64,000 bases of DNA from a virus. Location: IMG/VR virus record IMGVR_UViG_3300033998_000198, positions 1 to 64,000 of that record. The stretch is one strand, 5' to 3'. The notes beneath the pieces were generated by a model. The model worked only from the letters and a program-made list of their open reading frames with translations, searched no databases and was not told the DNA's origin. Position numbers and translations under genes: made by a program. Below, piece by piece: positions 21,843-48,617 of the stretch (the first letter of the stretch is position 1; every line of letters begins with the position of its first letter).

Positions 21843-24800
21843 ATGCAGAATAAGATATATACCACTCTTGCGAATATATTCAATGAGCTGAAACAAGCCA
21901 AGGGGTCAAGTGCTTCCTTGGCTGAAGCTATTGATGAAAAGGTTAAAGGCCAGCAGGAGATTGTAGAGGCCAGAGATGGATATGCGACTTTAAATGACAG
22001 ACTGGATGATATGAAGGCAAAGACTTCTGTAAACATGTCTGATATTGGCGTTATTAAACATGATGTCGATATGCTAAAGAATCAGCCTGTCAATACAGAC
22101 CCTGCACCGACAATCGTACAGATGAATGGCAATGAAATGATTGTCAGAATAGAAGACAGGATTACATATAAAGAGGATAATTTTGTACTTCTCCCTGGAA
22201 CACAGAAACTGATAGTAAACGACCAACCAAACGTAATCGTCGACGCATACCGAAAGACCCAGGATATTAACGCAGTAAAAGCCGCAATTGAATATACGGG
22301 TGATGATGTTGTAAAGTATGACAAAGAGAGAAACGTATTGTCAAACAATATGGTAATACCTGTTGCAACAAACAATCTATACAAACTGCCTTTCCATACT
22401 GCTAATGTGTTTTTAACAGAGGGACTTGATTCGTGCCTGATTCCTTATGTTGGCACTTGCATTGCCGATTATGCTGCCAGTCAGTTTAATGAAGACGGTT
22501 CACAGAACTGGAGCAACCATCTTATAAATGCACTTGAGGGAAAAGGTGCTATATGGACAATCAAAAGGTCATTCGTTAATGTGACGTTCTCATTGTTCAG
22601 AGCTATAGAGGTTGCAAGAGTTGCGTCGAAGTTTGCATCAAACAGTACAGTCGGCAAAGTTACTATTCAGATATCAAACGACCAGCAAGTATGGACAACA
22701 TTATACACCGGAAGTGACAGGGATCTTGATTATACTTTACCAACAGTACAGACCGCAAAGTATATAAGGTTCTCATACAACATTTTTGACAACCTGAGAA
22801 CAAACTATCAAATCGATGTCAGCAAGATATCGGTATACGCATATGAATATAACAAAGAATCAGGAGTTATCACAACCGTAAATCCGACACCAATTAACGA
22901 CAGAAGCGAAACTTTGAAGATTGTTCAAAAGAGTCCTACAGCAAAGGACCCATTCCTGATTACAAGATTTGCTATTGCAAACAGTAAAGACAATGGAGAG
23001 AACTGGGTAACTTATATCCCGCAAAGACTGACAGTAATGCCGGATGACTTCTATGACGACCTTGGGTATAAATATGTCGGTGACTCTCTTACAAATAACA
23101 TAAAACTTAACGCAACATCAAAATACCTGTTTAGTAACAAGAATGTATATGTTAATCCTTTACCGACAGTTGATGGTGTTCTTGGTACTGCTACAATTTC
23201 CGAACACGCCAGTAGAACGCTTGATTTAACATGGAAGCCTTATAAATACGTATTTATTAGGGCATACATAAAGATTGATGGGATGGAGTATCAGATTCCT
23301 ATAAGTCCGGACAATCTTAATAGAAATATAAGCGTTGCAATTGCAGGTTATAGCCTTGTGTTAAAGATTACACCACTTAGCAACAAAGTGTTGAAACTAT
23401 ATGTTTGGTCTGAACTTGACAAAGTAATCAGGCTCGATGAAGCAAAGGTTGTAGTAGACAGTGCGTATAGGCTATATTACCCTGAATGGTACGACTCGCA
23501 TGACTATGCTGTTATTTATAGTTCTGCAAGTTCAGTTGACGCAAGAAAATACATCAACGGATATCCTATTGATGAGAATGAAATATATACAAATTATGAC
23601 GTTCATAGATATTCAAGGTGGTATGGTCATTCGTCTGACGAAGGGTCATCTGCCTTTAAAGGTAATGAGTATACCAGCATAGCAATTATTCCGAAAGATA
23701 TGTATGGCGGCGGTGCTTTAAGGTCCTCTGTGACAAAGACAAATGATGGACAGTGGATTACACATACTTATATAAGATCCGGAGCTACACTTCCGGTCTC
23801 AATGTATCTATGCGGAGATAAGGCAGATGTGCTTAATCCTGTAATAGAAAGCGATACCGAAGGAATCACAGGTTCGTCGTTACAGCCAAGGTTTGAGTAT
23901 AAGAAAGACTATACTGCAAAAGTATATATTGCAAACAAGAAGATAGTTGGAATTCATTCAATACAAAGCGTATCGGATATCAGTAATATCCAGTACAGTA
24001 TATCTTTTGACGGCACAAACTTCTACACATATAATAACGATACTTTCCGATGGGACGGAATGTTTGACAGGGGAATGACATATACTGAGCTTAATGCGTT
24101 AAATGACAGCCACTTTGAACAATTAAGAGCTGGTGAATGGCTATACATCAAGGTACGGCTTATATCCCCTGACGCAAAAGTAGACAGCATCCAGATTGAT
24201 TTTGAGAACGATACATTTGTAAGTATTCACGAGAGTGAGATCATCGACAAAGGTATGCCGGCAAGGGTCCTTGAAACAATTAACCCAAGTTCACTGTTCT
24301 CGTATATCACAACAAAGCACTCTGCTATTAAACTGGCTACAGCAGCAATGTCTGTATTACCGATATATCAGTATCAATTGGCCGGGTTTGATTTAATGAA
24401 CTACAATGACTCACAGTGGCAGGAGATAGACCCTACAACTGTAATTAAATACTTGCTGCCGAATAACAATTTTATATTCAAGAATATAACAACATCCCCA
24501 CAACACGTAAAAGTAATGAGGAGGATTGTCAGCAACCAGACTGCTGTAATCGATATGGTTGAAGACGCAAAACAGAAACTTGCGGATCTCGAACGGCAGC
24601 AGAACGAATACAAGGTAGAAACTGATGACAGATTTACCTTGATGCAGCAAAGCATTGATTTAATGTACCAGTCAATGCAAGATGGTACTCCGCCTCCGCC
24701 ACTTCCTTCATTTATATTACCGCAGGTAAGAGAAATCGACGTTCCTGATCTTGCCCCACAGGGGTATTACACTGTGGATAAAGTAGGAGAATTAAGAGGA

Positions 24801-25943
24801 GTACAAGTATGGGAACAAAAGACATCGTATGTGCCGTTCACAGAACAGCTCATTTTCACAAAAGGAAACGAAGATTTGTTCGCAACATATGGTGTTGTTC
24901 TTAAAGATACCGGTGCGGAAATCTTTAGAGAATATGACATCACAAATGTATATGAGGTTCCGATAGGATGGGTGACGAGCAATAATTGGTCCCGGATGCA
25001 GGGAACTTATTTTGATGTGACCATCGATTCTAATGGCGTTAGTACAACTTCAGGTTCTGGGATTGTTGGTCTCTTTAATGACAGCTATCCCACTTTCACT
25101 TTTCAATGGTACGGAGTTGAAAATCTTTACGATTTTCATGAAATCTGGACACTACCAGGCGAAGATAAGCGTATGGTTGATATTATATTAGACTTTAGGC
25201 AATTTAGGTATATCAACTATATGACTGCATGTTTTGGTCAATTAAACGGCAGCCAACAGACTTCATTTTGGGCTTCTAAGGACGGATTAGAATTTCAGGA
25301 AGTTGCAAGATACACTGGAGAAAAGAGGTGGCAATCAATACAGTTTAATCGTGAATTACGGTATATCAGGGTAAGACTTGAAATTCCATATAGTGTAAAC
25401 AGAGGTGCTGGTCGTGTTAGTATCGTAAACATGAATATCTTCTGGTCACCTGTAAACTACTCGTGGGGTAAAGAGTATTATATCTATAATAAAACTCCTA
25501 TAAATACAACTCACTGGCTAAACTTTGAAGGAATTACAGCAGACAGATATATCGACCACAACCCTGCCGAAATGAGATTCCTGTTGTCAGACGACCCATC
25601 ACAGAATATATGGAAGTATTGGAATGGTACAAAATGGATAACAACGCAGTATATTAGGCTCGCAGAGGCTATGTCAATTGAAACGTTACTTTCGCTTACG
25701 AAAGAACAGTTAAATCAACTTGAACGTGGCTCGCTTACAATTGCTGCTATAATGAGAACTGACGATCGGTATAAGACTCCTGTACTAAGGAGTGTTAGTT
25801 TTAAGCATGATGTGACCAATGAAGAATTCTACACTCTTACAGACACAGACACCGTTGACTTCAGGTATTATCCTGAAACAGGACAGTTAACAATCGTGAA
25901 CAACTCCAGTGTTTCACGTAAGTTCAAACTAATTCAAATGTAA
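21843..25943 (+). CDS. Giant fiber/adhesin, 1366 aa
   Basis: ATG 21843 after AAGGGGG. The N-terminal 80 residues are coiled coil with two ARG-like motifs (ELKQAKGSSASLAEAID and IVEARDGYATLNDRLDD). Then follow several beta-sandwich units with discoidin-like signatures, for example about 235-330 (VASKFASNSTVGKVTIQIS, WTTLYTG, AKYIRFSYNI) and about 1110-1195 (FWASKDGLEFQEVARYTG, RYIRVRLEIP). A second coiled coil lies at about 895-935 (DAKQKLADLERQQNEYK), followed by a Pro-rich hinge (GTPPPPLP). This is the largest protein of the adhesin block and probably the main receptor-binding fiber. No glycan hydrolase motif was seen. Confidence 0.64.
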   Translation: MQNKIYTTLANIFNELKQAKGSSASLAEAIDEKVKGQQEIVEARDGYATLNDRLDDMKAKTSVNMSDIGVIKHDVDMLKNQPVNTDPAPTIVQMNGNEMIVRIEDRITYKEDNFVLLPGTQKLIVNDQPNVIVDAYRKTQDINAVKAAIEYTGDDVVKYDKERNVLSNNMVIPVATNNLYKLPFHTANVFLTEGLDSCLIPYVGTCIADYAASQFNEDGSQNWSNHLINALEGKGAIWTIKRSFVNVTFSLFRAIEVARVASKFASNSTVGKVTIQISNDQQVWTTLYTGSDRDLDYTLPTVQTAKYIRFSYNIFDNLRTNYQIDVSKISVYAYEYNKESGVITTVNPTPINDRSETLKIVQKSPTAKDPFLITRFAIANSKDNGENWVTYIPQRLTVMPDDFYDDLGYKYVGDSLTNNIKLNATSKYLFSNKNVYVNPLPTVDGVLGTATISEHASRTLDLTWKPYKYVFIRAYIKIDGMEYQIPISPDNLNRNISVAIAGYSLVLKITPLSNKVLKLYVWSELDKVIRLDEAKVVVDSAYRLYYPEWYDSHDYAVIYSSASSVDARKYINGYPIDENEIYTNYDVHRYSRWYGHSSDEGSSAFKGNEYTSIAIIPKDMYGGGALRSSVTKTNDGQWITHTYIRSGATLPVSMYLCGDKADVLNPVIESDTEGITGSSLQPRFEYKKDYTAKVYIANKKIVGIHSIQSVSDISNIQYSISFDGTNFYTYNNDTFRWDGMFDRGMTYTELNALNDSHFEQLRAGEWLYIKVRLISPDAKVDSIQIDFENDTFVSIHESEIIDKGMPARVLETINPSSLFSYITTKHSAIKLATAAMSVLPIYQYQLAGFDLMNYNDSQWQEIDPTTVIKYLLPNNNFIFKNITTSPQHVKVMRRIVSNQTAVIDMVEDAKQKLADLERQQNEYKVETDDRFTLMQQSIDLMYQSMQDGTPPPPLPSFILPQVREIDVPDLAPQGYYTVDKVGELRGVQVWEQKTSYVPFTEQLIFTKGNEDLFATYGVVLKDTGAEIFREYDITNVYEVPIGWVTSNNWSRMQGTYFDVTIDSNGVSTTSGSGIVGLFNDSYPTFTFQWYGVENLYDFHEIWTLPGEDKRMVDIILDFRQFRYINYMTACFGQLNGSQQTSFWASKDGLEFQEVARYTGEKRWQSIQFNRELRYIRVRLEIPYSVNRGAGRVSIVNMNIFWSPVNYSWGKEYYIYNKTPINTTHWLNFEGITADRYIDHNPAEMRFLLSDDPSQNIWKYWNGTKWITTQYIRLAEAMSIETLLSLTKEQLNQLERGSLTIAAIMRTDDRYKTPVLRSVSFKHDVTNEEFYTLTDTDTVDFRYYPETGQLTIVNNSSVSRKFKLIQM

Positions 25944-25955
25944 AGGGGATGCCAT

Positions 25956-27044
25956 ATGAAGAAATTATCAATTCCGTACACAAAAGATATGAAGATTCTT
26001 GATTTACTGGGGGACAACCTCCAGTATGTCAAGGAAATCTACTTTCCTTTGCCGTCAAACATTATGGCTTCAGGAAGACCGTACTTTGAAAGTGAAATCC
26101 CAGAATATGCTGCAAAGTACGATAGTGAAATCAAGAGAGCGAAAGATATGGGATTGGATGTGTCTATACTGTTGTCCAAGACTATCATTGACTTTGACAA
26201 TGGCATGGCTTCACTGGTTATGGCCATAAGGGAAATCCAAAGACTGAAGGAAGCCTACAATATTGACAAGGTAGTTGTAGGAAACAACACATTGCTCAGG
26301 ATCTACGGAGAACAGTTAAAGGGTATTGGAGTAAAAGTAGAGATGACTGTCATGACGGATATCGACTGTGTCGATAAGGTAGAACAGATGGTCGCAATGT
26401 ATCCGTTTATTGACTCCATATGCTTGAACAGTACCTTCCTGTTTAACCTGGATGACATCAAATATCTCAGGCAGAAGTTCCCGAACCTCGAATTGAAGTT
26501 GCTCGTAAATCACGGATGCCTTATAAATTGCATGTCGTTTGTGAGTCATCACCATTACCTGTCAAGCGTACTGATTGATCCGAATATCGGGATAAATGAT
26601 CTTGAAAAGTGGAGACTGTTTAGCAACCAGAATGAGATCTTGCGGACATGCAAGACATGCGATCATTACTTCTTCAGCAAAGGCGACGACTTCAATCCGA
26701 TAAGGGAGATGTCCTATCTGCGTCCTGAAGACCTTCATCTGTACGACGATGTCATTACATTGTTCAAGATATCAGGTCGTGAAAGACCGGCAGAACATGT
26801 AGTACACATGATAAAGGCATTCGGGGAGAGAAGCCTGGATGGAGACATGAGAACCATTATAGATCTTCCATATCCTATCTATTACATGGATAACAAATCA
26901 TTCCCGGAGGATTTCGGAGAACACAGAATAAACTGTGGACACAAATGTCACAAGTGTAATTACTGTGACAGTTTGAAAGAGGCTGTAATCCGGCCTGGAA
27001 AAAATACAGATGATAATATACAACAACCCGTCTTTGATGTATAA
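25956..27044 (+). CDS. U32-family (UbiU/UbiV/RlhA/TrhP-like) Fe-S protein
   Basis: 362 aa, the size of compact U32 proteins. The family pattern is visible: a TIM-barrel-like first half, then LLVNHGCLINC (C188, C192), CKTCDHYF (C232, C235), the block YLRPEDLHLYDDVITLFKISGRERP (about 254-278, equivalent to the family's DL...L...KIEGR), and a C-terminal cluster C327, C331, C334, C337. U32 members bind an Fe-S cluster and act in oxygen-independent hydroxylation (ubiquinone, 23S rRNA, tRNA) rather than as proven peptidases. It lies inside the fiber cluster, 12 bases after the 1366-aa adhesin, so a virion-protein or RNA modification role is possible. The substrate is unknown. Confidence 0.8.
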   Translation: MKKLSIPYTKDMKILDLLGDNLQYVKEIYFPLPSNIMASGRPYFESEIPEYAAKYDSEIKRAKDMGLDVSILLSKTIIDFDNGMASLVMAIREIQRLKEAYNIDKVVVGNNTLLRIYGEQLKGIGVKVEMTVMTDIDCVDKVEQMVAMYPFIDSICLNSTFLFNLDDIKYLRQKFPNLELKLLVNHGCLINCMSFVSHHHYLSSVLIDPNIGINDLEKWRLFSNQNEILRTCKTCDHYFFSKGDDFNPIREMSYLRPEDLHLYDDVITLFKISGRERPAEHVVHMIKAFGERSLDGDMRTIIDLPYPIYYMDNKSFPEDFGEHRINCGHKCHKCNYCDSLKEAVIRPGKNTDDNIQQPVFDV

Positions 27045-27095: not shown

Positions 27096-28940
27096 ATGGA
27101 TGTTATTTCTATGCAAATAGCAAATAAAGTTCTGAGACGAATGAATACCGAATTTAACGGGGTATATGACAAGTTCGTCGCAACCGCAGGACAGAAGACA
27201 TTCACCACTACGAAAGTGGTAGCTACCGACGGGAATGCTCTAAAAGTATTTGTGGACGGTATCCTGGCTGTAAAAGACATAGATTATACCGTCATAGACA
27301 GTCGAAATATTCAATTTATAAACGGCCTCGAAGCTGGAGCACAGGTTCTACTGACAACTGATGTTGTTGGCGTTCCAAAGTTTGAGATGGTAGCTCCGGC
27401 TTATGACGATACGCAGGTAAAGGCCGATATCAACTCTCTTGCAACAAGAGCTCAGAACTCTGAGAATGCAATTTTTGCATTGCAGACAAGAGTAACCAAT
27501 GCCGAGAGCGAGATCAACAACATCAAATCCGTGTTGGACGAAGACGGTGATGGAAGTATTACAGACACGATAGCCAATATAAAGGCTCAGTGGGAATCTG
27601 CTGACGGCAATCTCACAAACCTGATTAACAACAAGGCTGAACAGTCAGACCTTGAAGCGGTTGAAAACGAGATAGCAGCAGCAAGAGGTCTTAGTTCCGA
27701 CCTTGCAACAGAGCTTAATGCGATCAAATCTTCTATACCCGCTGCATATGATGATTCCGCTCTGTCAGATAGAGTTGCTGATATCGAGGATGAAATCAGT
27801 ACAGCACGGGCAACGCATGCATCCATTGGAGAGAGGATACAAGCAGTTGCTGATCAGATTCCTGTAACTGAAGTTGCAGCCATCAAGAATGAAATAGAGG
27901 CTGCTCGTGGAGGCAAGAACAATCTATCAGAGAAATTATCTGAGATTCAGTTGTCCATTCCTGAAGCATACGATGACTCTGATTTATCGCAGAGAGTCAC
28001 AGCACTCGAATCCAAGAAACTTGATGAATTTGTTCTTGTTGACACGGTAACCGGTTATGAATACAAAATCAAAGTTATAAATGGAGTATTGACTGCTGAT
28101 CTTCTGAAGAAACTTGCTTCAGTTACTGTATTACAGATTGGTACAGGAAACATTTATAAGGGTGACACGGTTGGGTTTACTGCAACTGCCAAGTTTGAAG
28201 ATAATACCGATGCTACATCGAACACTCTGTTTGTATACTCTGTTGATAACGAAACAATAGCAACCATTAATCCTTCAACAGGTGTTCTTACAGCTCTTGA
28301 TGAGGGTAATGTAATTGTAAGTGTAACTGGTACTGCATATGGTGTAAGTAAGTCAAACAATATTGCTATAACCATCATCCTTACAGATTCGCAGGCTGTA
28401 GAGAAGGCTAAAACAAACCTCGATCTTGCCGCATATAACAGCTTGCCAAACCTTGATGCTATAATAGGCAATCTTGTAATGCCGGCCACAATGAACGGCA
28501 CGACTGTAACATGGTCGTCAGATAATGTTTCCGTTATAGCAAACGACGGAACGGTTGTAAGACCTTCCGGACTTGACGGAAATGCAGTTGTAACATTAAC
28601 TGCTACAATCAGCAAAGGAACTGTTAGTGACACCAAGACATTTGTTGCTACAGTAATAGCACTTCCATTGACTGATGCTGAGAAAATTCAGATAGCAAAA
28701 GCAAACCTAACCCTTGGTGACACTTCAGCCGTAATATCTGATCTGACGTTACCGAATACTCAGAATGAAGCAACAGTAACTTGGGTATCAAGCGATCCTA
28801 CTGTAGTGTCTGATACTGGTGTAGTAACAAGACCTGCTGCTGGAAGTGGTGACGCTACAGTAACGCTGACTGCAACTATAACGGTTAACAGTGCAAGTGA
28901 CACTAAAGAGTTCACCGTAACTGTTCTTCAGGAAGAATAA
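27096..28940 (+). CDS. Fiber/adhesin with coiled coils and bacterial Ig repeats
   Basis: 614 aa, ATG 27096 after GGGGTG. Residues about 22-95 are one fiber beta module (VFVDGILAVKDIDYTVI). Residues 105-320 are long coiled coil with an EF-hand-like loop (DEDGDGSITD, 148-157) and three ARG-type motifs (EIAAARGLSSDL, EISTARATHASIGERI, EIEAARGGKNNLSEKL). Residues about 345-425 form a Big_2 Ig domain. Residues about 435-520 and 525-612 are two atrophied Ig (aBig_2-type) repeats: VTWSSDN / VTWVSSD, then VVRPSG / VTRPAAG, then VTLTATI. aBig_2 domains are typical of Paenibacillus and clostridial surface proteins, so host-derived adhesive modules are likely. Confidence 0.72.
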   Translation: MDVISMQIANKVLRRMNTEFNGVYDKFVATAGQKTFTTTKVVATDGNALKVFVDGILAVKDIDYTVIDSRNIQFINGLEAGAQVLLTTDVVGVPKFEMVAPAYDDTQVKADINSLATRAQNSENAIFALQTRVTNAESEINNIKSVLDEDGDGSITDTIANIKAQWESADGNLTNLINNKAEQSDLEAVENEIAAARGLSSDLATELNAIKSSIPAAYDDSALSDRVADIEDEISTARATHASIGERIQAVADQIPVTEVAAIKNEIEAARGGKNNLSEKLSEIQLSIPEAYDDSDLSQRVTALESKKLDEFVLVDTVTGYEYKIKVINGVLTADLLKKLASVTVLQIGTGNIYKGDTVGFTATAKFEDNTDATSNTLFVYSVDNETIATINPSTGVLTALDEGNVIVSVTGTAYGVSKSNNIAITIILTDSQAVEKAKTNLDLAAYNSLPNLDAIIGNLVMPATMNGTTVTWSSDNVSVIANDGTVVRPSGLDGNAVVTLTATISKGTVSDTKTFVATVIALPLTDAEKIQIAKANLTLGDTSAVISDLTLPNTQNEATVTWVSSDPTVVSDTGVVTRPAAGSGDATVTLTATITVNSASDTKEFTVTVLQEE

Positions 28941-28971: not shown

Positions 28972-29244
28972 ATGAGAGCGATAGATAGGATGAGACGTCT
29001 CGAAGCAATGACTCTTGGTGTTGCCGCCAACTACGTTGTAGATTATACCTATGACAACAAAGGCAGGGTATCCCAGGAAATTGTAACCGGTGACATCAAT
29101 AAGACAACTACATATACTTATGACGATGCTACCGACAACATTATCACAGAAACAACTGTGGAAAACGGTATAACAATCACCAAGACATACGAATACGATG
29201 AAGCCTCTGGCAATATCGTCAAGGTAACCGTCGTTAAGTCATAA
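28972..29244 (+). CDS. Small YD-repeat protein
   Basis: 90 aa, ATG 28972 after GGAGG. A short basic helix (AIDRMRRLEAMTLG) is followed by three YD-type strands (VDYTYDNKGRVSQEIV, TYTYDDATDNIITE, TYEYDEASGNIVKVTVV). It is nearly a stand-alone version of the YD segment in the protein at 20866. Probably a detachable fiber segment that joins larger fiber subunits; the function is inferred only from composition and position. Confidence 0.58.
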   Translation: MRAIDRMRRLEAMTLGVAANYVVDYTYDNKGRVSQEIVTGDINKTTTYTYDDATDNIITETTVENGITITKTYEYDEASGNIVKVTVVKS

Positions 29245-31768: not shown

Positions 31769-32283
31769 TGAAGGTTGATCTTGATTTTAGAGATGAAATG
31801 AATGAATGGATAAGAGATTATGGGGTTACAGTTCTGTACCAGAGAAGCAGCAATTACATAAAGTGTTCATGTGTAGACCCATTATATAAAGCTCCAGATT
31901 CAAGATGCACCAAATGTAATGGTACTGGCAAATTGATTAAAACTCAGAAGTTGAAGATCCTGATGCAGGAGCAATACCCTCCAAACAGAAAAGGACAGAG
32001 AAAAGGACAGTATGATTACTCTCAAGTTGGACAAATATACGCTCCTCAGATAACTTTCTACTTTGTCCATAACGAACCACCTAAAGTAAAAGATATAGTT
32101 TATATAGTCGGTTGGGATAAAGGAAGACCAGTAAATCTTATCAATATGTATGAGATCACGGGATTCCAAGGACATAGAGGGGAAGACGGAAGAATAGAAT
32201 TCTATATGATATCGGCAACAAGCAAGCCAGAACTGATGAGCAGGGGTAAAGAGTATTTAGATAGATTGAGGCGAATGAGATGA
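31768..32283 (+). CDS. Neck/head-closure-like protein with zinc ribbon
   Basis: 171 aa, ATG 31768 coupled to the previous stop. It has a C-x-C-x11-C-x2-C zinc site (C33, C35, C47, C50) ending CTKCNGTG, the DnaJ-type knuckle. A beta-rich part follows (ITFYFVHNEPPKVKDIVYIVG), then NMYEITGFQGHRGEDGRIEFY and a basic end. Zinc-knuckle proteins of this size between portal/capsid and sheath genes are commonly head-completion or neck proteins of Firmicutes myoviruses. The four-base ATGA overlap with the next gene supports joint assembly. Confidence 0.55.
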   Translation: MKVDLDFRDEMNEWIRDYGVTVLYQRSSNYIKCSCVDPLYKAPDSRCTKCNGTGKLIKTQKLKILMQEQYPPNRKGQRKGQYDYSQVGQIYAPQITFYFVHNEPPKVKDIVYIVGWDKGRPVNLINMYEITGFQGHRGEDGRIEFYMISATSKPELMSRGKEYLDRLRRMR

Positions 32284-33830
32284 ATTATGATATCGTATCT
32301 CAGTTAAATACAGTTGAAAATTACGGTAAAGTAATTTACCTTCTTGGTTCCGCAGAAAGCGGGCCTGTCCAAACTCCTGTAAAAGTCAGGACAACGGAAG
32401 TGTTAAAAGATGTCTTCGGCAGCCTCGGTACTATTGTTGAAGCATTCAACCAGATTACAGATGTTGCCGGCAGCAATTGTGAAATATACTGTGTAAAGGT
32501 AACAGGTACGCATGCAACATTGACGATGGATGTAAACGTAAAAGGCCAGAATGTAATCAACGACGGATTTATTATGAAATCCAAATATGCAAATGAGATA
32601 TATAATAACATCTATGTTGCACTTGATAACCAAGGTATGACATTTTATTTTCCAACAGAACTTGGTGGAGGTACAAGACGGTATACTTTCTCCGATTACG
32701 AAATACTCGGCTTGCTAATCAGAGCGATCAATGAAGATACAAAGAAAGGTCTTAACCATGTATGGGTACATGCAACAATAGGACACGGCACACCGCTTGA
32801 TGGATTGCTATTCTCAGTCAATCCATCAATGATGAATTTCTCGGGAGGAAACAGCGGACTGTATTACAGTAAGGACCAATACTGGTTTTGTCTGTGCGAT
32901 ACATATGATTTGCTTGAAAGTGAATATATTGATATAATATTACCATTGGATGCTTTTATGGACGATGTCCATCCGAGATTTTATTACGGTGACCAATTTG
33001 AGTCATCGGTTACATATTCAAGCGACAGAGACTACCTGGATCTTGAGGATTCAGATGGTAGACCGATAACGTTCCATCGGCCGCTTATAGACTTCTGTAA
33101 GAAGCAGATGCGGTTCGGTCTGATTACTCACGGTATCATGGGGTTTAATAAAATTCCAGATATTGAAGAATTGAATAATCAGGCGTATAATTATATTGAT
33201 GTAATAAAAGGAAGTCCGCTCGGAGACCGGATCGGATTCTTGAAAGCACCGGAAACCGACGACGGGTTCTTTATTTCGGTAGTAGCTGGAGAATTGGAAT
33301 ACAGTGATGGTACAATTGCAAACGGCTACACTGGTTATGCTGGCCTTATGGCAAGCACAACAATAGCATCAAGTTTGACAAATAAACCATTGGGAGATAA
33401 GGTCAAGCTGGCAACAACATTCACCAGCGAACAATTAGAGGCTATGGCCAATTTGGGGGTTGTGTCGTTTAGAGACAGTATTTTGAAGGGGTTAGTCGTA
33501 TCGAATGCGGTTACACCTGTAGCTGACATTTCTAATGAACTGCATTACTCATGCAATGTGAGAATGATTCAGTTAACACTATCCTTCATAAAATTACAAC
33601 TCGACAAATTCCTTGGCGAAGATATAAACAAACTCATTGACGACAATGCCATAGACACTACTATCAAAGGTGTGCTTGAGTATTTGAAAGAACAGGATGT
33701 TCTAAAGGATTACACTTACACACAGAATATCGATAGGATAAACGGAGTTCTTCAAATAACTCTCGACCTGAAGACCCTTTACATGGTTGAATCCTGCTCG
33801 GTATCTGCCGAAGCTACATTCAAAGTGTGA
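32280..33830 (+). CDS. Tail sheath-like protein (first of two)
   Basis: 516 aa. The N-terminus has the sheath pattern VIYLLGSAESGPVQTPVKV...VFGSLGTIVEAFNQ, where contractile sheath proteins read G-x-A-x-x-GP...P-x-x-V...FG. The C-terminal half contains GYAGLMASTTIASSLTNKPLGDKV and LEAMANLGVVSFRDSILKG, typical of the region before the sheath C-terminal arm, and a closing strand pair (YTQNIDRINGVLQITLDLKTL). It lies upstream of a second, larger sheath gene. It may be a distal or proximal sheath ring, a sheath initiator, or a divergent paralogue kept for a second structure. Confidence 0.62.
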   Translation: MNYDIVSQLNTVENYGKVIYLLGSAESGPVQTPVKVRTTEVLKDVFGSLGTIVEAFNQITDVAGSNCEIYCVKVTGTHATLTMDVNVKGQNVINDGFIMKSKYANEIYNNIYVALDNQGMTFYFPTELGGGTRRYTFSDYEILGLLIRAINEDTKKGLNHVWVHATIGHGTPLDGLLFSVNPSMMNFSGGNSGLYYSKDQYWFCLCDTYDLLESEYIDIILPLDAFMDDVHPRFYYGDQFESSVTYSSDRDYLDLEDSDGRPITFHRPLIDFCKKQMRFGLITHGIMGFNKIPDIEELNNQAYNYIDVIKGSPLGDRIGFLKAPETDDGFFISVVAGELEYSDGTIANGYTGYAGLMASTTIASSLTNKPLGDKVKLATTFTSEQLEAMANLGVVSFRDSILKGLVVSNAVTPVADISNELHYSCNVRMIQLTLSFIKLQLDKFLGEDINKLIDDNAIDTTIKGVLEYLKEQDVLKDYTYTQNIDRINGVLQITLDLKTLYMVESCSVSAEATFKV

Positions 33831-34651: not shown

Positions 34652-36961
34652 ATGATCGCATTTCGCAACTTATACCCAAATCTTCCAGGTCATCTGGTAG
34701 AGTTCAAGGATGGCGGATTGGCTCTCAGAGTTGAAGCAGATCCACCAAAAACCGACAGTATGCTCATTCTCGGAACCGCAATTGACGGTCCTGTTATGGA
34801 GCCTGTAGCTGTAGATGCAACTACTGCTGAATTGCTGTTCGGTAAGGCAGTAAAGGGTAACGGCGTACCCAATGGATCAACACTGATTCCCGCATTTGAA
34901 GAAGCATGGAACGCTGGATGCCGTGATATTCGTCTTATGAGGATATCTGGTGATTACGCCGTAGCGGAAATCAAAGCTGAAGATTTAACATCAACAACCC
35001 AGAAGCTCAAGACAGAACAGTTAGGAGTTGCCCCAGGTAATGATGAAACAGTTATTACACTGGCAAACAAGCATATCGTTCCTAACTCTGCAAAAGTATA
35101 CGTAAAAGGCACTCAGCTTCTGACAGGCTTTACTGTTGATGAAGCAGCAGGTAAGGTAACCATTGCTGCTGGTGTTGACGATGCTGGGGCGTCAGTATCT
35201 GTAAGTTACAAATACTTCGCTATTGAAGATGTCGCTAACGAAGCGGCTACTGTAGAAGGAGGCAAAGTAACACTTACATATGATATTGACTCTATAGTGT
35301 CCATTAAAGTCAATGGAGATCCTGCAACACCCGTTTATACTGTGTCCGGAAAAGACATTACTTTTGAGTCCGGCGTTGCTGAAGGTGACAACGTAGCTGT
35401 TACATACAAAGGTATCACTACTAACGAAATCACCGCTCAGGAGAACGGAACCGGTACTGATCCTTTCCTTACTGCAACATCTTTGATGGTAGTGCCAATC
35501 GGACAGAGCCCTGTTCCCGGAACAATGCATCTGTATGCTAACGGAACTGAAATCCTCACTTCCGGAGCTTTCACAGTTGACGGTACTGCAAAGACCATCA
35601 GTATAAAGAAGGAAATGGTTTCTAAGGGAGCTCTCCTTGAAATCAGCTACATGTATAACGAAACTGCAACTCAGACTCCTAAGATTGAAATAACATCCAT
35701 ATATGGCGGCGAAGTTTACAATCAGGCAAAAGTTGAAGTTGTAGATGTCAAGGACTCCAGCGGTAATGTAATGGGTAAGAAAGTTATTCTTACCAAACCC
35801 GAATCCAAGAAAGCACAGGTCGCAGAAGAACCTTTGAGCTACAGCTCACTGGATTATCCGAACTTCATGCTCTTGGTACAGGCAATCAACAACGACCCGA
35901 TGAATAATGTGTTCAAGGCTTCAACTAAGTTCAACAACGTTGAAACCTCCAAGTTGTTAACCAAAACCCCAACTTTCTTTCTCGGTGGAGCAGATGGAAT
36001 CAACCTCACAAAAGAGGAATTGTTCGAAGCTCTGTCTGGTAAGAGAAATGAAGCCGGCCTGTTGACTAAACAGGGAGCGTATCAGTTGCTCGAAGATTAT
36101 CAGGTTGACTGGGTCGTTCCTGTTGGTGTTTATGCTGACGACGAACTTCCTGGTAAATTCCAGAACTTTGCATATGAGCTGGCTATGTTCTGTGCGGTTC
36201 TCTCCTACAGGAACAAGATGACCTTCGGTGCAATCAATATGAAGCCTGTAGAAGACACCGGTCTGTCTTCAATTCAGGAACACGCTAAGAAACTTGCTGC
36301 ATTCGAGAACCTCTACTACATGAGAGATTCATACGGCAATATAATCAAAGACAGCAACGGAAACTTTATCGATCTCGGAGGATTCATTAACGTTGTTGCC
36401 GGACCTGAAATAGCTGTTAGAGGCACAAGCCTTGGAACATATAACGCAGATCCTGCGGTTTCATATGTTGCATTCAGTACGACACTGAATCCTCAGTCCG
36501 CAGCAGGCAATAAGACAATACCTAATGGTAGGGGGCTTCGTTACAGATTCTCCAATGCACAGCTCGACAGTATCGTCGCAAGACGTTTAACCGTACTGAA
36601 ACTCAAACAGGACGGCAGCGTTTCTGTAGTAGATGATGCAACCTGTGCAGCTCCTGGTTCTGACTACGCAAGAAGAACCACTGGTAAGGTTGTAAGAGAA
36701 GTCGTCGATCAGATCAGAGAAGTCTGTGATCCTTTCATCGGCGAACCTAACACAATCGAACAGAGAAACGCAATGTCTGCCACCATCAGTAAGAGACTTG
36801 GACAGTTGAAAGATGCTGGAGTAATCCAGGACTATGACTTCCAGGTAGTTGCAACATTGCAGGATCAACTGCTTGGTCAGGCAAAGATCGAGTTAACCCT
36901 CGTTCCACCTCAAGAATTGAGGAAGATCACTACAGTTGTAAGCCTCAAGCCTTCTCTGTAA
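34652..36961 (+). CDS. Tail sheath protein with inserted beta domains
   Basis: 769 aa, ATG 34652 after AAGGAGGAAG. N-terminal sheath pattern: SMLILGTAIDGPVMEPVAV...LLFGKAV...LIPAFEEAWNAGCRDIRLMRISG. Residues about 125-345 are an insertion of three beta modules of the fiber type (KVYVKGTQLLTGFTVDE, VSIKVNGDPATPVYTVSG, MHLYANGTEILTSGAFTVDG). The C-terminal contractile core is clear: SYVAFSTTLNPQSAAGNK, then RGLRYRFSNAQLDSIVARRLTVLK, and the terminal arm RLGQLKDAGVIQDYDFQVVA. Sheath subunits contract to drive the tube through the envelope. The insertion would point outward and could decorate the tail. A strong hairpin follows the gene. Confidence 0.88.
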   Translation: MIAFRNLYPNLPGHLVEFKDGGLALRVEADPPKTDSMLILGTAIDGPVMEPVAVDATTAELLFGKAVKGNGVPNGSTLIPAFEEAWNAGCRDIRLMRISGDYAVAEIKAEDLTSTTQKLKTEQLGVAPGNDETVITLANKHIVPNSAKVYVKGTQLLTGFTVDEAAGKVTIAAGVDDAGASVSVSYKYFAIEDVANEAATVEGGKVTLTYDIDSIVSIKVNGDPATPVYTVSGKDITFESGVAEGDNVAVTYKGITTNEITAQENGTGTDPFLTATSLMVVPIGQSPVPGTMHLYANGTEILTSGAFTVDGTAKTISIKKEMVSKGALLEISYMYNETATQTPKIEITSIYGGEVYNQAKVEVVDVKDSSGNVMGKKVILTKPESKKAQVAEEPLSYSSLDYPNFMLLVQAINNDPMNNVFKASTKFNNVETSKLLTKTPTFFLGGADGINLTKEELFEALSGKRNEAGLLTKQGAYQLLEDYQVDWVVPVGVYADDELPGKFQNFAYELAMFCAVLSYRNKMTFGAINMKPVEDTGLSSIQEHAKKLAAFENLYYMRDSYGNIIKDSNGNFIDLGGFINVVAGPEIAVRGTSLGTYNADPAVSYVAFSTTLNPQSAAGNKTIPNGRGLRYRFSNAQLDSIVARRLTVLKLKQDGSVSVVDDATCAAPGSDYARRTTGKVVREVVDQIREVCDPFIGEPNTIEQRNAMSATISKRLGQLKDAGVIQDYDFQVVATLQDQLLGQAKIELTLVPPQELRKITTVVSLKPSL

Positions 36962-42359: not shown

Positions 42360-43066
42360 TGGAACAATTACAAGCATTCGATCTTTTGGTATTCAAGGAG
42401 CAGAATGAAGGTCACAGGGTCATGTATATCAATATTTGTAATCGTGAGTTTGTATTTAGGACTCTTGGAAAGAAGGAATACAAGAACATCCTGAATGTTG
42501 CAAATAATGAATTTGATCTCGAAGATATGATATGCCAGATTGCTTTGATATACCCTGAAGACTTTGACTTCAAGGATTGTCCTCTTGGAGGGTTGTCAAA
42601 GACAATTGCTCCTTTGATTACCGAACTTTCCGGATTTACCAATCCTGAGATCGTCCAGGAGACTTACGACCAGTATCGCCTGGAAATGAATAGTTTTGAG
42701 AATAAGGCATATGCCCTCATTAAGATGGCATTCCCCGAATTTACGTTTGAAGAAATGGAAGAATGGACATGGGATAAGGTTCTCAAGGTTGCAACAAAGG
42801 CAGAGTTTATCCTGAATGAAACTCACTTTAGAGATAACCCTATCGAGCTTGTCAAAGTAGACACTACGCCGCAGAAACAAATGGAACGCACTGAGTTTGT
42901 TCAGGAACTGCGGCAACAGGGTATTGACCCGATGAAATATTTCTGGAATGAAATTAATGTCAAGCCTCAATATGTAGACTTTCCGTTAATCGGTGGTGTG
43001 CATTGGCAGAACGAGGGGATATTGAATGAGATCAGACGACAGATGGAGAGAGCATCTAAGAGGTAA
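42359..43066 (+). CDS. Tail assembly chaperone 2
   Basis: 235 aa, starting on the A of the previous stop. Residues about 20-95 parallel the upstream protein (REFVFRTLGKKEYKNILNVA, LEDMICQIALIYP, ITELSGFT). The C-terminal 140 residues are helical (FEEMEEWTWDKVLKVATKAEF, then WQNEGILNEIRRQMERASK). The longer second member of a chaperone pair normally carries the tail-binding part. The two genes are separate frames; no slippery heptamer was found in the 25-base window where a -1 shift could fuse them. Its 3' end overlaps the giant gene by 41 bases. Confidence 0.66.
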   Translation: MEQLQAFDLLVFKEQNEGHRVMYINICNREFVFRTLGKKEYKNILNVANNEFDLEDMICQIALIYPEDFDFKDCPLGGLSKTIAPLITELSGFTNPEIVQETYDQYRLEMNSFENKAYALIKMAFPEFTFEEMEEWTWDKVLKVATKAEFILNETHFRDNPIELVKVDTTPQKQMERTEFVQELRQQGIDPMKYFWNEINVKPQYVDFPLIGGVHWQNEGILNEIRRQMERASKR

Positions 43067-46000
43067 ATATCCAGAGTATCTGGGCAGACAGAGAAAATGG
43101 GCCGAAGATTATGACAGAGACGATACCGTAAAAGACGACAGCATCTTATCAAAACTGCTTATCGCTGCGGCGATAGGTGCTGCCGGATATGGTTTATATA
43201 AAAGCGGTGCATTAAGAAAGGCCATCAGTAAAGGCATTGATGAATTAGGGGAGTATAAAGGCGTTATCCCTGAAGCATTCAATGCCTTAAAAGCATGGAC
43301 TAAAACTGATGTGGATGTTCCAATCGGAAGCATATTCCGTCAGAATTTTTCCTCCTTAAAGTCTGTATCTAACTTTGTAAAGAACAAGGACATTATAAAT
43401 GACACCCTTGCCGATTTACGTGGTCTTCGTGAAATGGTTCAAAAGAGGATCGCACAGGTTAAAGATGAAGCCGACAGGATTACCAAAATGGCTGTCAAGG
43501 AAACAGACTTATTGTTTGAGATAGGTAATCTCAATGAAATGATGGATTCTGTCAAAGCAGACGATATACTGAAACGCCACCAAATGGAAATCGGAAACAA
43601 GGCACTTCAGACACTGATAGAAAAGAGAAGCGAAGGAGCTATGTCAAAGGCTGCCCAAGCAAAGCTCAAACAAAATGGATACAGGCTTCTTACTATAGGT
43701 GATGTTCTCAAGGTAGACACACAGACAAATAAACCGTTGCTTATTAACAGCACAAGCAGGTTCGAAGTAGAAGAACAGACATTAAAAGAACTGACAGATT
43801 TCTTCTCTACCTTTGAGGTAATAGACAAAAAGACCGGGAAGAAGTCTCTTGCAATCAATAACTTTGACATGATCAAAGACATCACATTCGATAGAGGACT
43901 CATGATCAATGAGTTCGGAAAGATTGCAGACATAAGGCGAGCTGACAGACACTTTGCACAGATGATGGTTTCTGCTTCGCTTGATTTTCATATACCGTTA
44001 ATAAAGATACGTCCGTTTGAAATGGTCGGACTGCATAACAAATTCATGCGTCAGGAAGTAAAATACGGTTATCTGTCTGCAAAAACATTTCAGCCAATAC
44101 TTACAGGTAAGCCCGGTCAGGAGTATCTCGGCAAGAGCATGGTGTTCATGCACGGTAATGTATTTGACATAGATAAAAACGGTAACATGAAATTAGTTGC
44201 CCAGGGAGGTAAACTGCTCCATATTCGTGACGACGCAAACGTTGGATATGGAATCAGCAAACACGCCGATATCATAAGAAAAATGGCAAACCTTCAGAAT
44301 GTACACTTCCAGACGTACACAGCCGAGGACGGACGAATCAAGGCGGCTTACTCTAAAGTGATGGAATGGTTCGGGCTTGGTTTCCAGGACAAGAAGATAT
44401 CAACGGAATTTGAACTCTTTAAGCCTTCAACATGGGATTCTCTACTTAATAAATGGCAGCCGTTCAGGCCATACAAATCCTCATTTGTAACAAGACCGCA
44501 GGATTCTTTCGGACATTCTCCGACAGGTCCTACGTATTTGTTTATGTATCAAGGCAAGACATTTAAAGACGTAATGCAAGGCAGCGTATCTATAGAGGAT
44601 TTCTTCAAGCAGTTTGTTGCAGGAAGAAAGAACTTGAAGAATGTAACTACGGCAACAATGGTTCCGTATCATCTTCTTGACCGTCTCAGCAACTCGCTGA
44701 GAGCTGTTAGTGCAGGTGGTATTAGCCTTGGCTTAAAGACAGAAGACCTTGGATCGGTCCAGGATATCTTCAAGAACTTGATGCTAAAGCGTATACTTCC
44801 GGTTTATCTTGGCATACAGGCTTGGATATACATAAATAACAAAGAAGAAGGCAAACAGCCTGAAGACAAGATTGCAAATACTGTTGTAAACCTCGACCTT
44901 GCATGGCATGGAGTAAAAGACAGGCTCGGCCTTACATCTTGGGCAAAACGTGTATCTCAGCTTATGCCAGGAGGAGAGCAGATAAGTGACATTCCCGGTC
45001 TTGGAGTTCTCGATATGACTTCAACCAGGGAGGAAAAAGAACAATGGTACAAGACTGGTATGGAGCCAATTCGTAAAGGGCGTTACTGGAGTCTTGGCAA
45101 TACTCCATTTACTGGAGGCAAGATAGAATATTATGCACCAAATTGGTACAGAAGGGTAATCAGCGATTACAAGTGGACAGATTCACAGTGGGGAAGTCGG
45201 GATGAATACTTTGCAAATGCTCCATTTCCGACTCCAAAATATCCTTTCGCTCCAATACGGCACTTTATTACTGACCCGTATCATTGGGAGAAAAAGCATT
45301 ATCATGACAGACCATATATGCTGTCGTCTCCGGCATTCAGTAATGTACCAATAGTAGGTCCTGTACTCAGTGCAACTCTTGGCCGGCTGTTAAAACCACA
45401 GATTCGCATGCATCCTGAAGCATGGGCACCAAAACTTGAAGGGTATTCGGTCGTGGATCAAGGAACAGGAGATAACACCGGTACTGTTCTTCCTGACCAA
45501 TTGGTTGCAACAAATAGGTTTCCTGGAACTGAAATCACAGTTGTCCCTGAAGCAGAAATGGGACAGAAGCCGCTTGATTCATTGTTTCATTGGAGCAGGA
45601 AACCGAAGACCAATACAAATGATATTATATATGTTACGCCAAGCGGGCAAACAAGCATTGTCAGCATACCTAACAGCATCTCAATCAAGGATTTGAACGA
45701 CCAATTACGTAAAGAATCAATCAGGAAAGTCCGTGGTGCGTCTGAGAAACGTGATGGTGGTCTGATTAAAGATAACGCTGTTGCAAAACAACTCATCAGC
45801 AATATCGAGAATACGTTAAATGACCAATACGATGTATTCTCTGAAATTGGAGGTATATATGGATTCGGTATCAATGCTCTTATAGGTAATGGTTCTGATG
45901 TTGGTGGTGTGGAAATCGAAACACCCGCCTATGCGACATCCTTAAATAAAGCATTCTGGGATCAGGATCTCGGTGGACTTGGTGGAGAATTCTCTGAAAT

Positions 46001-48617
46001 CTATCGTAGGTTTATACCAAAGAGAAGGCGTGAGATTGAATATTACAATCCAATCAGAAACACCATGCCTACATGGATGCCGGGAACAGATTATTTTACA
46101 GACTTCCAGCATGGTGATCCTTACGCCAAGATTAAACGTGGAGAAGCAAGACTTCCTGGAGAAGGGTATGAGAAGCTATATGGAATCAGAGACCCTATGG
46201 AGCTCGGAATAGGTTCGTCGTTTATAGGTAAATCAGTTGATGATATCGTTAAACATTTCTTACACCAGGACGAAATCATAGACGAAGACCAGCTTGATAT
46301 TGTGCAATCTGGTACAGATTTTCATGAGAAAGTTCAGTCGGCATGGAAAAAGAAAGGCTTGCTTCTTGATGCAGAAGTTGAAGTTAATGACAGGAAACAC
46401 AATGTCATTGGATTCTATGATGCACGTATTCTTGATGAATCTTCACCAACAGGCGACGCTATTGCTGAAATAAAGACAATCAACGATAATGGGTTTAAGG
46501 AACTTGACAAAAAAGGGCCAATGGATTACCACCAGAAACAGCTTAACTTCTATCTGTGGGCAACACATAGGCCAAAAGGTTATATTTATTACATCAACAG
46601 GGATCATCCGGAACAGGAAGCAAAAATATTCCCTATGGCATATGACCAGAAGATGATGGAAGAAACATTCAAGAATCTTGAGCAAGCCAGGAAGATCATC
46701 AAAGACAAAATAGCCTTAAATGAGATCCAAAGAGGAGACTTGTACGATTACTTTGACAGGTTCCGCATACTTGCAGATGTAGCACCATACTCAAAAGAGT
46801 TCAAAGAATACAGGGCTTTGATAAGCAAGATGCAGCTAACCAAGGAACAAGAGGCTGAAGCAAAGGAAATACGTAAGCGTGTAATTGAACAAAACAAACC
46901 GCTTAGGATATATCCTTATAAATTCCAGACTTCAAACATAAAAGTACAGACTGTAACTGTAAAACGCAAGATAGACAACGAGAAGTTCCTTACATATGAG
47001 TTCCCTGACAACCCAATAGAGCTTGCCGGCGTTAATCTTCCTAACAGCAAAACTTCCAAAGAAGGGAGGGCAGCAACTCAGTTTATTGACCGGTTTATCC
47101 ATGAAGGAGCCAGGATACAGGTCGGAGTTGATGCAGACCCGTTGAACCTTATACAGGATAACACTTATAAGACGATCAAAGCTGTCGTATACTCAGGCAA
47201 GACAAACATCAACCGCACGGCAATACAGCAGGGAGTAGGAAAGGAAAATGAAGATGACTTCTCGCCTGCCGGTGTTCATGCTCGTTTTACCGAAGGTGAA
47301 ATCAGATTCGGCAAAGTATGGGAGAAATTCGCTCACTTGAATACTATGTTCCATATAAAGTTCTTGCAGGTAAGGTCTGCACTTGAGAGTTATGAACGCA
47401 GGGATTTATACGGCAAAGACTTTCAAAGATGGGAGCATCCTATCCGGGACTTCCTCCGCCCAGCAATCGACCAGAATATAAACAACAAGTATGGAATACT
47501 GGTTGGCGGTTTGGTCGGCTCATTGTTTGGCCGTACACTTTATGGTAAAATTATAGGAGCAACAGTTGGTGTTGCAGTAATTGGTTCAGGTAAGGCATAC
47601 AAGAAAGCATATGAATTAATTTCAGGTGAGAAATGGATACCTGAACGCAGGGAAAAAGAACGTGATTTAAACGAATACATTGACATCCTGAAATTTATCA
47701 AATACAAGCGATTGTATGTTGAGTATGCACAGAAATCAAAACTCAAGGAGAACTTTGATGTTCAGAAGTTCCTTGACGCTCAGAAAGCTCGTGGTGAAAA
47801 AAATAAAGCAAGAATCAAGGATCTTGAAGAAGCAAAGAGGTTAATAAAAATCAAGGGCGACAGTGCAATACGGTCGATGTATAAACAGTATAGACCAAAA
47901 TACGGCACCCCAGGAATGAACGTGGACGAGATGATATCTGCAATCAACAAAGAAATGACAGAACTCATGAATGAACGAAAGGCCGTTAAAGTTCCAAAGA
48001 TTGCACAAAAGGCCATTGCATACTACAACTTATCAGAGAAGACCATGTACGGATACGATGTCGGAGAGCCTATCCAAAACATCCTGGCCGCAATGCCAAA
48101 GAAGGATAGACAGTATCTCAGTTACTTTATGAAAGCTCCGGAAGAAGAACGCATGAAGATTCTTGAGGTGGCTCCACGGTATGTCCGCAGGGTTCTCGAA
48201 CAAACATGGGGGCTGCCTGTTGAGGGCAAACCAGATCTTATTCAGTATTTCAAGCACCATCAACTTCCAGGACCTGACTGGGAAGGATGGGATGAAAACA
48301 TAAACCTGGATCTGGTTAAAGTTAAAATGGTTCGTAATGAAGCCCTTGATATTTCAGATTTTAATATCTGGGAAGACGACGTGCAGCAGGCAAAAGCAAT
48401 GGGACCTATTCCGCTGCCTAAACTATATATAAGTGACTATGCAGAGAAGGTAAAGGCAAAACTCGAAGATCTACTGCACGGAATAGGACTAAACGACGTA
48501 TCTGTAAGCTATTCTCTATCATCAAAGGATATTGATGTAGATATAGACCTGCAAAGAGACAAAAAGAAAGAGATAGAGAGGTACATTAACGAAAAAGGTG
48601 CATCTCTATTCCAATAG
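43026..48617 (+). CDS. Giant tape-measure-position protein with PD-(D/E)XK nuclease
   Basis: 1863 aa, ATG 43026 after GAGGGGAT, inside the end of chaperone 2. A hydrophobic segment (about 40-58, SKLLIAAAIGAAGYGLY) and a glycine-rich pair of segments (about 1490-1530) are typical of tape measures that cross the host membrane; helices surround them. Residues about 1070-1225 are a RecB/Cas4-type PD-(D/E)XK nuclease: GTDFH (H1100), GFYDARI (D1132), AEIKT (E1148, K1150) and the following YHQKQLNFYLWA helix. Residues about 1325-1410 resemble a staphylococcal-nuclease fold (IELAGVNLPNS, EGRAATQFIDRFIHEGARIQVG, then INRTAIQQGVG) but lack the usual catalytic residues. DNA cleavage after ejection is inferred. 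Confidence 0.78.
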   Translation: MRSDDRWREHLRGKYPEYLGRQRKWAEDYDRDDTVKDDSILSKLLIAAAIGAAGYGLYKSGALRKAISKGIDELGEYKGVIPEAFNALKAWTKTDVDVPIGSIFRQNFSSLKSVSNFVKNKDIINDTLADLRGLREMVQKRIAQVKDEADRITKMAVKETDLLFEIGNLNEMMDSVKADDILKRHQMEIGNKALQTLIEKRSEGAMSKAAQAKLKQNGYRLLTIGDVLKVDTQTNKPLLINSTSRFEVEEQTLKELTDFFSTFEVIDKKTGKKSLAINNFDMIKDITFDRGLMINEFGKIADIRRADRHFAQMMVSASLDFHIPLIKIRPFEMVGLHNKFMRQEVKYGYLSAKTFQPILTGKPGQEYLGKSMVFMHGNVFDIDKNGNMKLVAQGGKLLHIRDDANVGYGISKHADIIRKMANLQNVHFQTYTAEDGRIKAAYSKVMEWFGLGFQDKKISTEFELFKPSTWDSLLNKWQPFRPYKSSFVTRPQDSFGHSPTGPTYLFMYQGKTFKDVMQGSVSIEDFFKQFVAGRKNLKNVTTATMVPYHLLDRLSNSLRAVSAGGISLGLKTEDLGSVQDIFKNLMLKRILPVYLGIQAWIYINNKEEGKQPEDKIANTVVNLDLAWHGVKDRLGLTSWAKRVSQLMPGGEQISDIPGLGVLDMTSTREEKEQWYKTGMEPIRKGRYWSLGNTPFTGGKIEYYAPNWYRRVISDYKWTDSQWGSRDEYFANAPFPTPKYPFAPIRHFITDPYHWEKKHYHDRPYMLSSPAFSNVPIVGPVLSATLGRLLKPQIRMHPEAWAPKLEGYSVVDQGTGDNTGTVLPDQLVATNRFPGTEITVVPEAEMGQKPLDSLFHWSRKPKTNTNDIIYVTPSGQTSIVSIPNSISIKDLNDQLRKESIRKVRGASEKRDGGLIKDNAVAKQLISNIENTLNDQYDVFSEIGGIYGFGINALIGNGSDVGGVEIETPAYATSLNKAFWDQDLGGLGGEFSEIYRRFIPKRRREIEYYNPIRNTMPTWMPGTDYFTDFQHGDPYAKIKRGEARLPGEGYEKLYGIRDPMELGIGSSFIGKSVDDIVKHFLHQDEIIDEDQLDIVQSGTDFHEKVQSAWKKKGLLLDAEVEVNDRKHNVIGFYDARILDESSPTGDAIAEIKTINDNGFKELDKKGPMDYHQKQLNFYLWATHRPKGYIYYINRDHPEQEAKIFPMAYDQKMMEETFKNLEQARKIIKDKIALNEIQRGDLYDYFDRFRILADVAPYSKEFKEYRALISKMQLTKEQEAEAKEIRKRVIEQNKPLRIYPYKFQTSNIKVQTVTVKRKIDNEKFLTYEFPDNPIELAGVNLPNSKTSKEGRAATQFIDRFIHEGARIQVGVDADPLNLIQDNTYKTIKAVVYSGKTNINRTAIQQGVGKENEDDFSPAGVHARFTEGEIRFGKVWEKFAHLNTMFHIKFLQVRSALESYERRDLYGKDFQRWEHPIRDFLRPAIDQNINNKYGILVGGLVGSLFGRTLYGKIIGATVGVAVIGSGKAYKKAYELISGEKWIPERREKERDLNEYIDILKFIKYKRLYVEYAQKSKLKENFDVQKFLDAQKARGEKNKARIKDLEEAKRLIKIKGDSAIRSMYKQYRPKYGTPGMNVDEMISAINKEMTELMNERKAVKVPKIAQKAIAYYNLSEKTMYGYDVGEPIQNILAAMPKKDRQYLSYFMKAPEEERMKILEVAPRYVRRVLEQTWGLPVEGKPDLIQYFKHHQLPGPDWEGWDENINLDLVKVKMVRNEALDISDFNIWEDDVQQAKAMGPIPLPKLYISDYAEKVKAKLEDLLHGIGLNDVSVSYSLSSKDIDVDIDLQRDKKKEIERYINEKGASLFQ

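Follow-up and report, generated by a model that had tools for sequence, protein, structure and literature searches.

Within the adhesin locus of a large myovirus, the window studied here (the whole 64,000-nucleotide stretch analysed, part of the 131,934-base virus record IMGVR_UViG_3300033998_000198) encodes a genuine U32-superfamily barrel protein, an assignment supported by profile, homology and fold evidence. Its chemistry is probably of the hydroxylase type. Our tentative reading of its role is that of a U32-type, Fe-S-dependent oxidoreductase working without O2, a hydroxylase whose likeliest target is the neighbouring adhesin or the glycan that it carries. Hundreds of deposited records already contain phage U32-like proteins, labelled 'peptidase' or hypothetical, and a literature search for phage U32 proteins, U32 proteins of biosynthetic clusters and a role for phage chorismate mutase found no report. 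What appears to be new is the stand-alone U32 gene in the fibre locus of this myovirus lineage, together with the definition of a clade that joins it to several cellular and phage groups. Such a phage-wide clade with distinct clusters offers compact single-domain members for biochemistry.

The U32 gene and its predicted fold

The gene (25956..27044, + strand) is an intact ORF of 362 aa with an ATG start. A Shine-Dalgarno-like AAAGGGG, read directly from the sequence at 25942..25948 (+), overlaps the stop codon that ends the adhesin gene upstream and is separated from the ATG by seven bases. The same gene, with zero nucleotide differences, is present in a second near-identical assembly from another sample (IMGVR_UViG_3300034759_000155), which shares 99.8-99.9% identity with the window record across 17-22 kb. 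This twin was the sole match when viral contigs were searched with the window protein alone. A profile of 30 family sequences, from which the window row had been left out, scored the ORF at 144.6 bits (E 2.9e-44) and matched no other ORF of the window. Shuffling the protein 1000 times gave at most 7.4 bits, so the U32 match is not due to chance.

In a single-sequence search, Pfam U32 (PF01136) scored 13 bits (E 0.061), below the curated cut-off of 22.4, so the U32 assignment rests on profile and fold evidence; single-sequence searches of PDB and NCBIfam returned nothing useful. PF01136 matched 16 of the 31 family members at E<=0.1 (best 4.9e-12), and the phage 'peptidase' family phrog_5757 matched the window protein at 5e-9. 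The family profile matched the solved U32 protein 5d88 at E 5e-16, and in profile-profile comparison the family aligned with E. coli UbiU, RlhA, TrhP and UbiV (98% probability, E 1e-13), with KISGR falling on their KIEGR. Moreover, the AF2 model generated from 31 sequences (pLDDT 78.8, pTM 0.82) exhibited an eight-stranded (beta/alpha)8 barrel, the top PDB match of which was again 5d88 (E 5e-7). The barrel on which the original prediction had staked itself is therefore present in the model.

Cysteines are located at positions 138, 156, 188, 192, 232, 235, 327, 331, 334 and 337. The motifs from which the gene had been recognised were all found in the sequence: the pairs C188/C192 and C232/C235, KISGR, and a C-terminal four-Cys group, C327-x3-C331-x2-C334-xY-C337 (CGHKCHKCNYC), 25 residues before the end of the ORF. 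The core CX3C (C188 and C192 in NHGCLINC; 26517..26531, +) lies directly past barrel strand 7, with a strand at residues 179-183 of the AF2 model preceding it; C188 occurs in every row of the clade alignments, and a single row lacks C192. H198 (26547..26549, +) is kept throughout the clade apart from the RB69-type members, which have Cys there, and E186 of most clade members is His in the window protein. The C232/C235 pair (26649..26660, +) falls in a low-confidence loop of the model, and C235 shares an alignment column with the third core Cys found in clostridial relatives, a residue that shifts position across the clade. In the clade alignments, P257 and D259 of the RPED motif (residues 256-259; 26721..26732, +) are nearly invariant and E258 is kept in at least 90%, while K271 and R275 of KISGR (residues 271-275; 26766..26780, +), past strand 8, are invariant and G274 is not universal. 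The C-terminal CX3CX2CXYC cluster (C327, C331, C334, Y336 and C337; 26934..26966, +), likewise delimited from clade alignments, is also missing from one clostridial subclade. It had been taken for a canonical U32 cluster but turned out to be the hallmark of a different clade, absent from the E. coli U32 enzymes.

Deposited phage relatives carry the names 'peptidase' or 'collagenase-like protease', and the C-terminal four-Cys group could bind zinc. Both would suit a non-catalytic or peptidase-like protein, such as a virion Fe-S/Zn protein with a structural or chaperone role, in line with the old name 'peptidase U32'. We consider this quite unlikely, as the core CX3C, RPED and the K/R pocket are conserved in archaea, bacteria and phages, which argues for catalysis.

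Distance from canonical U32 oxidases

U32 oxidases belong to the small set of known enzymes that introduce oxygen in the absence of O2. The characterised members are needed for hydroxylation and show a genetic need for prephenate, and UbiU and UbiV carry [4Fe-4S] (PMC6747719, PMC6599085, PMC11574389). RlhA and TrhP are needed for the C5 hydroxylation of pyrimidines in RNA, a reaction that requires prephenate (PMC6599085), and prephenate is the oxygen source in anaerobic ubiquinone synthesis (PMC11574389). The window protein resembles UbiU/UbiV, RlhA and TrhP (PF01136; 5d88) in its (beta/alpha)8 barrel, its Cys ligands past strand 7 and its K-x2-GR past strand 8, and differs from them in several respects. 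The four-Cys motif of U32 oxidases is CX6CX15CX3/4C, or CX6CX16CX38C in UbiU (PMC6747719), whereas the window protein has CX3CX39CX2C plus the extra C-terminal CX3CX2CX2C, in which the last intervening pair is XY. The essential Glu, E161 in RlhA and E162 in TrhP (PMC6599085), is unconserved, the aligned residue being K181. Finally, trees placed the E. coli U32 enzymes outside the clade of the window protein with a support of 100/100. Membership of the UbiU/RlhA/TrhP type was rejected on these three grounds, and as canonical Cys spacing and essential Glu are both lacking, that name is unwarranted; what stands of the predicted superfamily fit is the U32 barrel and the conserved Cys clusters.

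The same data bear on the possibility of a host tRNA/rRNA hydroxylase of RlhA/TrhP-like function, used for translation takeover. Superfamily membership and the role of RlhA and TrhP in RNA are in its favour, but the different cluster spacing, the missing aligned catalytic Glu, the position in a fibre locus and the full separation from the E. coli enzymes in the trees make it very unlikely.

An accessory gene in a variable adhesin locus

The U32 gene is part of a same-strand structural run of a large myovirus that includes portal, major head protein, two tail sheaths and fibre-like proteins. Upstream lies a large fibre-like adhesin of 1366 aa with an F5/8-C-like stretch (21843..25943, +), and downstream a Big_2/aBig_2 fibre protein of 614 aa (27096..28940, +). 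Judged by its tail sheath, the closest cultured relative of this virus is a Moorella phage (37%), which bears out the anaerobe-type lineage proposed beforehand, and the host is probably an anaerobic gut-type bacterium. In a sister phage (G001), the main sheath of which is 64% identical, the genes of the fibre cluster are arranged identically: a 1336-aa adhesin is followed directly by a 40% identical homolog of the downstream fibre gene, with no U32 between. No U32 relative was found in the entire 199.8 kb of this sister phage, nor in Moorella phage MTATph1. The large adhesins of both phages showed 20.8% global identity, inside the shuffled range of 18.6-24.1%, and their homology was rejected. 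The sister phage thus keeps the flanking order without U32, and the two adhesins have no recognisable homology; U32 is therefore accessory and, in one pair of phages, varies together with the distal adhesin. The U32-adhesin link consists of gene position and co-variation in this single pair.

Within the window, the U32 gene has the highest GC3 among genes >700 nt (z 2.5). The major capsid gene comes close to it in GC3, and by codon distance the U32 gene ranks fourth, so composition was not decisive for recent horizontal transfer.

In the mechanism that we propose, the U32 protein would probably be made late with the fibres from the variable adhesin locus. Its barrel would bear the core CX3C (plus third Cys) cluster past strand 7, an RPED/KxxxR pocket around strand 8 and the second, C-terminal four-Cys cluster. 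In the anaerobic cell, the enzyme would most likely hydroxylate the adhesin encoded next to it, or an attached sugar, drawing the oxygen from prephenate or a comparable metabolite of the host. Fe-S binding, hydroxylation, late expression and substrate are thus all predictions for the window protein. The adhesin or its glycan is favoured as substrate because of the late-operon position, the way in which gene and adhesin vary together, and the parallel in cyanophages described below. As no chorismate mutase was found in this contig, prephenate would need host supply. The unconserved catalytic Glu (K181), the replacement of E186 by His and the lone long branch formed by the protein, the nearest clade of which is uncertain (88/85), count against the hydroxylase reading. 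A broader version, in which a phage Fe-S hydroxylase modifies its own fibre post-translationally and is exchanged with the adhesin as one cassette, cyanophages doing likewise with a U32-methyltransferase and 2OG oxygenases, seems to us doubtful. If the fibre link is true, phages chemically tailor their receptor-binding proteins, something rarely looked for.

Other features of this region were also noted. The fibre cluster includes a 90-aa protein made mostly of RHS repeats (28972-29244), 53% conserved in the sister phage. Two different tail sheath genes lie near each other (32280-33830 and 34652-36961), as in MTATph1. An 1863-aa late-region protein (43026-48617) shows a weak match to a Cas4-domain exonuclease at residues 1119-1225 (phrog_1990, 1.2e-5).

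The CX3CX2CXYC clade and its known relatives

We defined the CX3CX2CXYC U32 clade by C188, C192, RPED, K271/R275 and a C-terminal CX3CX2CX[YF]C, all of which the window protein has. The clade ranges over Methanosarcinales, gut Clostridia (biosynthetic clusters included), marine and cyanophage contigs and RB69-like phages. About 50 loci with relatives come from mainly Methanosarcinales genomes, and roughly 30 of 391 Clostridia genomes carry clade relatives when only matches scoring clearly higher than canonical U32 proteins (27-62 bits) are counted. The placement of the window protein beside clostridial and marine members is weak (88/85). When viral contigs were scanned again with an alignment of clostridial type, the one addition was a degenerate 306-aa gut-phage relative (L221:7512-8432), in which YIRPED and the C-terminal Cys group are kept and the core CX3C and K-x2-GR are lost.

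The closest BLAST matches are gut-Clostridia proteins (about 25% identity, E about 1e-23). These NSGC-type U32-like proteins, the best single-sequence matches, share C235 and the same C-terminal cluster, but they are chromosomal, have T in place of the G of KISGR, and adjoin an AraC regulator and QueG-like 4Fe-4S proteins, neighbours that suggest small-molecule chemistry instead. Other clade members occur in NRPS, fatty-acid/ACP and radical-SAM clusters. Together with the high GC3 of the window gene, these contexts would fit a small-molecule enzyme captured from a clostridial host as an auxiliary metabolic gene, with a host metabolite or natural-product-like compound as substrate and the fibre position as an insertion accident. 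We hold this to be rather unlikely: at the low identity to the bacterial proteins found, acquisition would be old, the gene has survived undamaged amid the genes of a structural operon, and cyanophages offer a fibre-locus parallel. Five clostridial members (L188, L189, L195, L196 and L197) lie inside NRPS, ACP/ketosynthase and radical-SAM biosynthetic clusters and are candidate anaerobic tailoring enzymes; the clostridial contexts, AraC/4Fe-4S included, are consistent with oxidative tailoring in anaerobes.

The Methanosarcinales U32-like protein shares the clade motifs and aligns over its full length (22-30% identity, E down to 1e-21). It differs from the window protein in being cellular, with a conserved partner gene, DUF5402, and no phage context. 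In the six loci read (L026:7941-9415, L055, L025, L033, L036 and L039), the U32-like gene was in all cases followed by a DUF5402-type gene, and in Methanolobus and ANME-3 it lies near mtr genes.

Among phages, RB69ORF050c (phrog_5757) shares with the window protein the type of C-terminal cluster and RPED/K-GR (21-24% identity, E about 1e-7). It differs in its NEFC...THC.YRDSC core and in its location in a DNA-modification cluster with chorismate mutase, the window gene being in a fibre locus. RB69-type U32 genes lie between arabinose-5-phosphate isomerase/nucleotidyltransferase genes and a TS-superfamily gene. U32 is present in RB69, JS09, 92A1, EcS1 and Thanatos; both U32 and chorismate mutase are missing from the genomes of T4, RB49 and 44RR2.8t. 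Chorismate mutase scored above the Pfam cut-off in 92A1, EcS1, Thanatos-1, PSTCR6, PM2 and R1-RT, and not in RB69, JS09 or F27. In Erwinia phage Virsaitis27 (L220:3492-5697) the order is peptidase (U32), putative chorismate mutase, thymidylate synthase, and a U32-chorismate mutase-TS-superfamily order also occurs in arabinosyl-hydroxy-cytosine-type T4-like phages (L013, L005, L006, L003 and L012). Next to its RB69-type U32 gene, a rumen phage encodes a fused DAHP synthase-chorismate mutase (L120:6291-7343), and in one MAG contig the genome's sole detected CM_2 chorismate mutase (L067:11114-11395) is near its U32 gene. This sister-clade gene order supports prephenate-dependent hydroxylation. 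In RB69-like DNA, arabinose is linked via 5-hydroxycytosine, a base ascribed to the action of a TS-type 5-hodCMP synthase (PMC13390438). For hydroxyl attachment to phage cytosine, the authors of the Thanatos study had no hypothesis (PMC12838424). Judging from the gene order, the C5 hydroxyl of cytosine in RB69-type phages may come from U32 chemistry that depends on prephenate, and the combination of U32, chorismate mutase and a TS homolog makes the Thanatos gap directly testable. Phage record G000 contains three IS605 OrfB/TnpB-type proteins with a Cas12f1-like TNB domain (L009:11258-12454, L010:8889-10061 and L011:5322-6443), an assignment that reflects our reading of which members matched.

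By extension, the window protein could be a DNA-base hydroxylase like the RB69ORF050c clade, providing 5-hydroxypyrimidine for DNA hypermodification. The phage proteins that matched it significantly in single-sequence search are of RB69 type, and their genes are grouped with those for A5P isomerase, nucleotidyltransferase, chorismate mutase and a TS homolog. This role appears unlikely, because the contig, which may be incomplete, has neither a PF00303 thymidylate synthase/dCMP-HMase nor a chorismate mutase, and no glycosyltransferase or sugar isomerase is among the 25 most frequent Pfam families in the rest of it. ThyX, dCMP deaminase and RNR are far from U32, and trees put the protein outside the RB69-type clade.

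A parallel for the reading preferred here, that of a hydroxylase acting on the adhesin, is the U32-methyltransferase fusion of cyanophages and marine T4-like phages (T4-like GC354). It is located downstream of the 'fiber' gene GC346 and adjoins 2OG-Fe(II) oxygenases and structural genes, and the fusion and its sericin-like neighbour are each found in 123 phage records with identical organism counts. The position of the window gene between adhesin-like genes is as first described, but fibre-locus placement of U32 is not unique to this phage, and to that extent it is less unexpected than had been thought. Cyanophage GC354 and the window protein are alike in core (NEGCxxxC in GC354), CX3CX2CXYC cluster and location in a fibre/structural cluster; the former is fused to a Methyltransf_24-type domain and has 2OG-Fe(II) oxygenase neighbours, whereas the window protein lacks the C-terminal methyltransferase-like fusion and stands alone.
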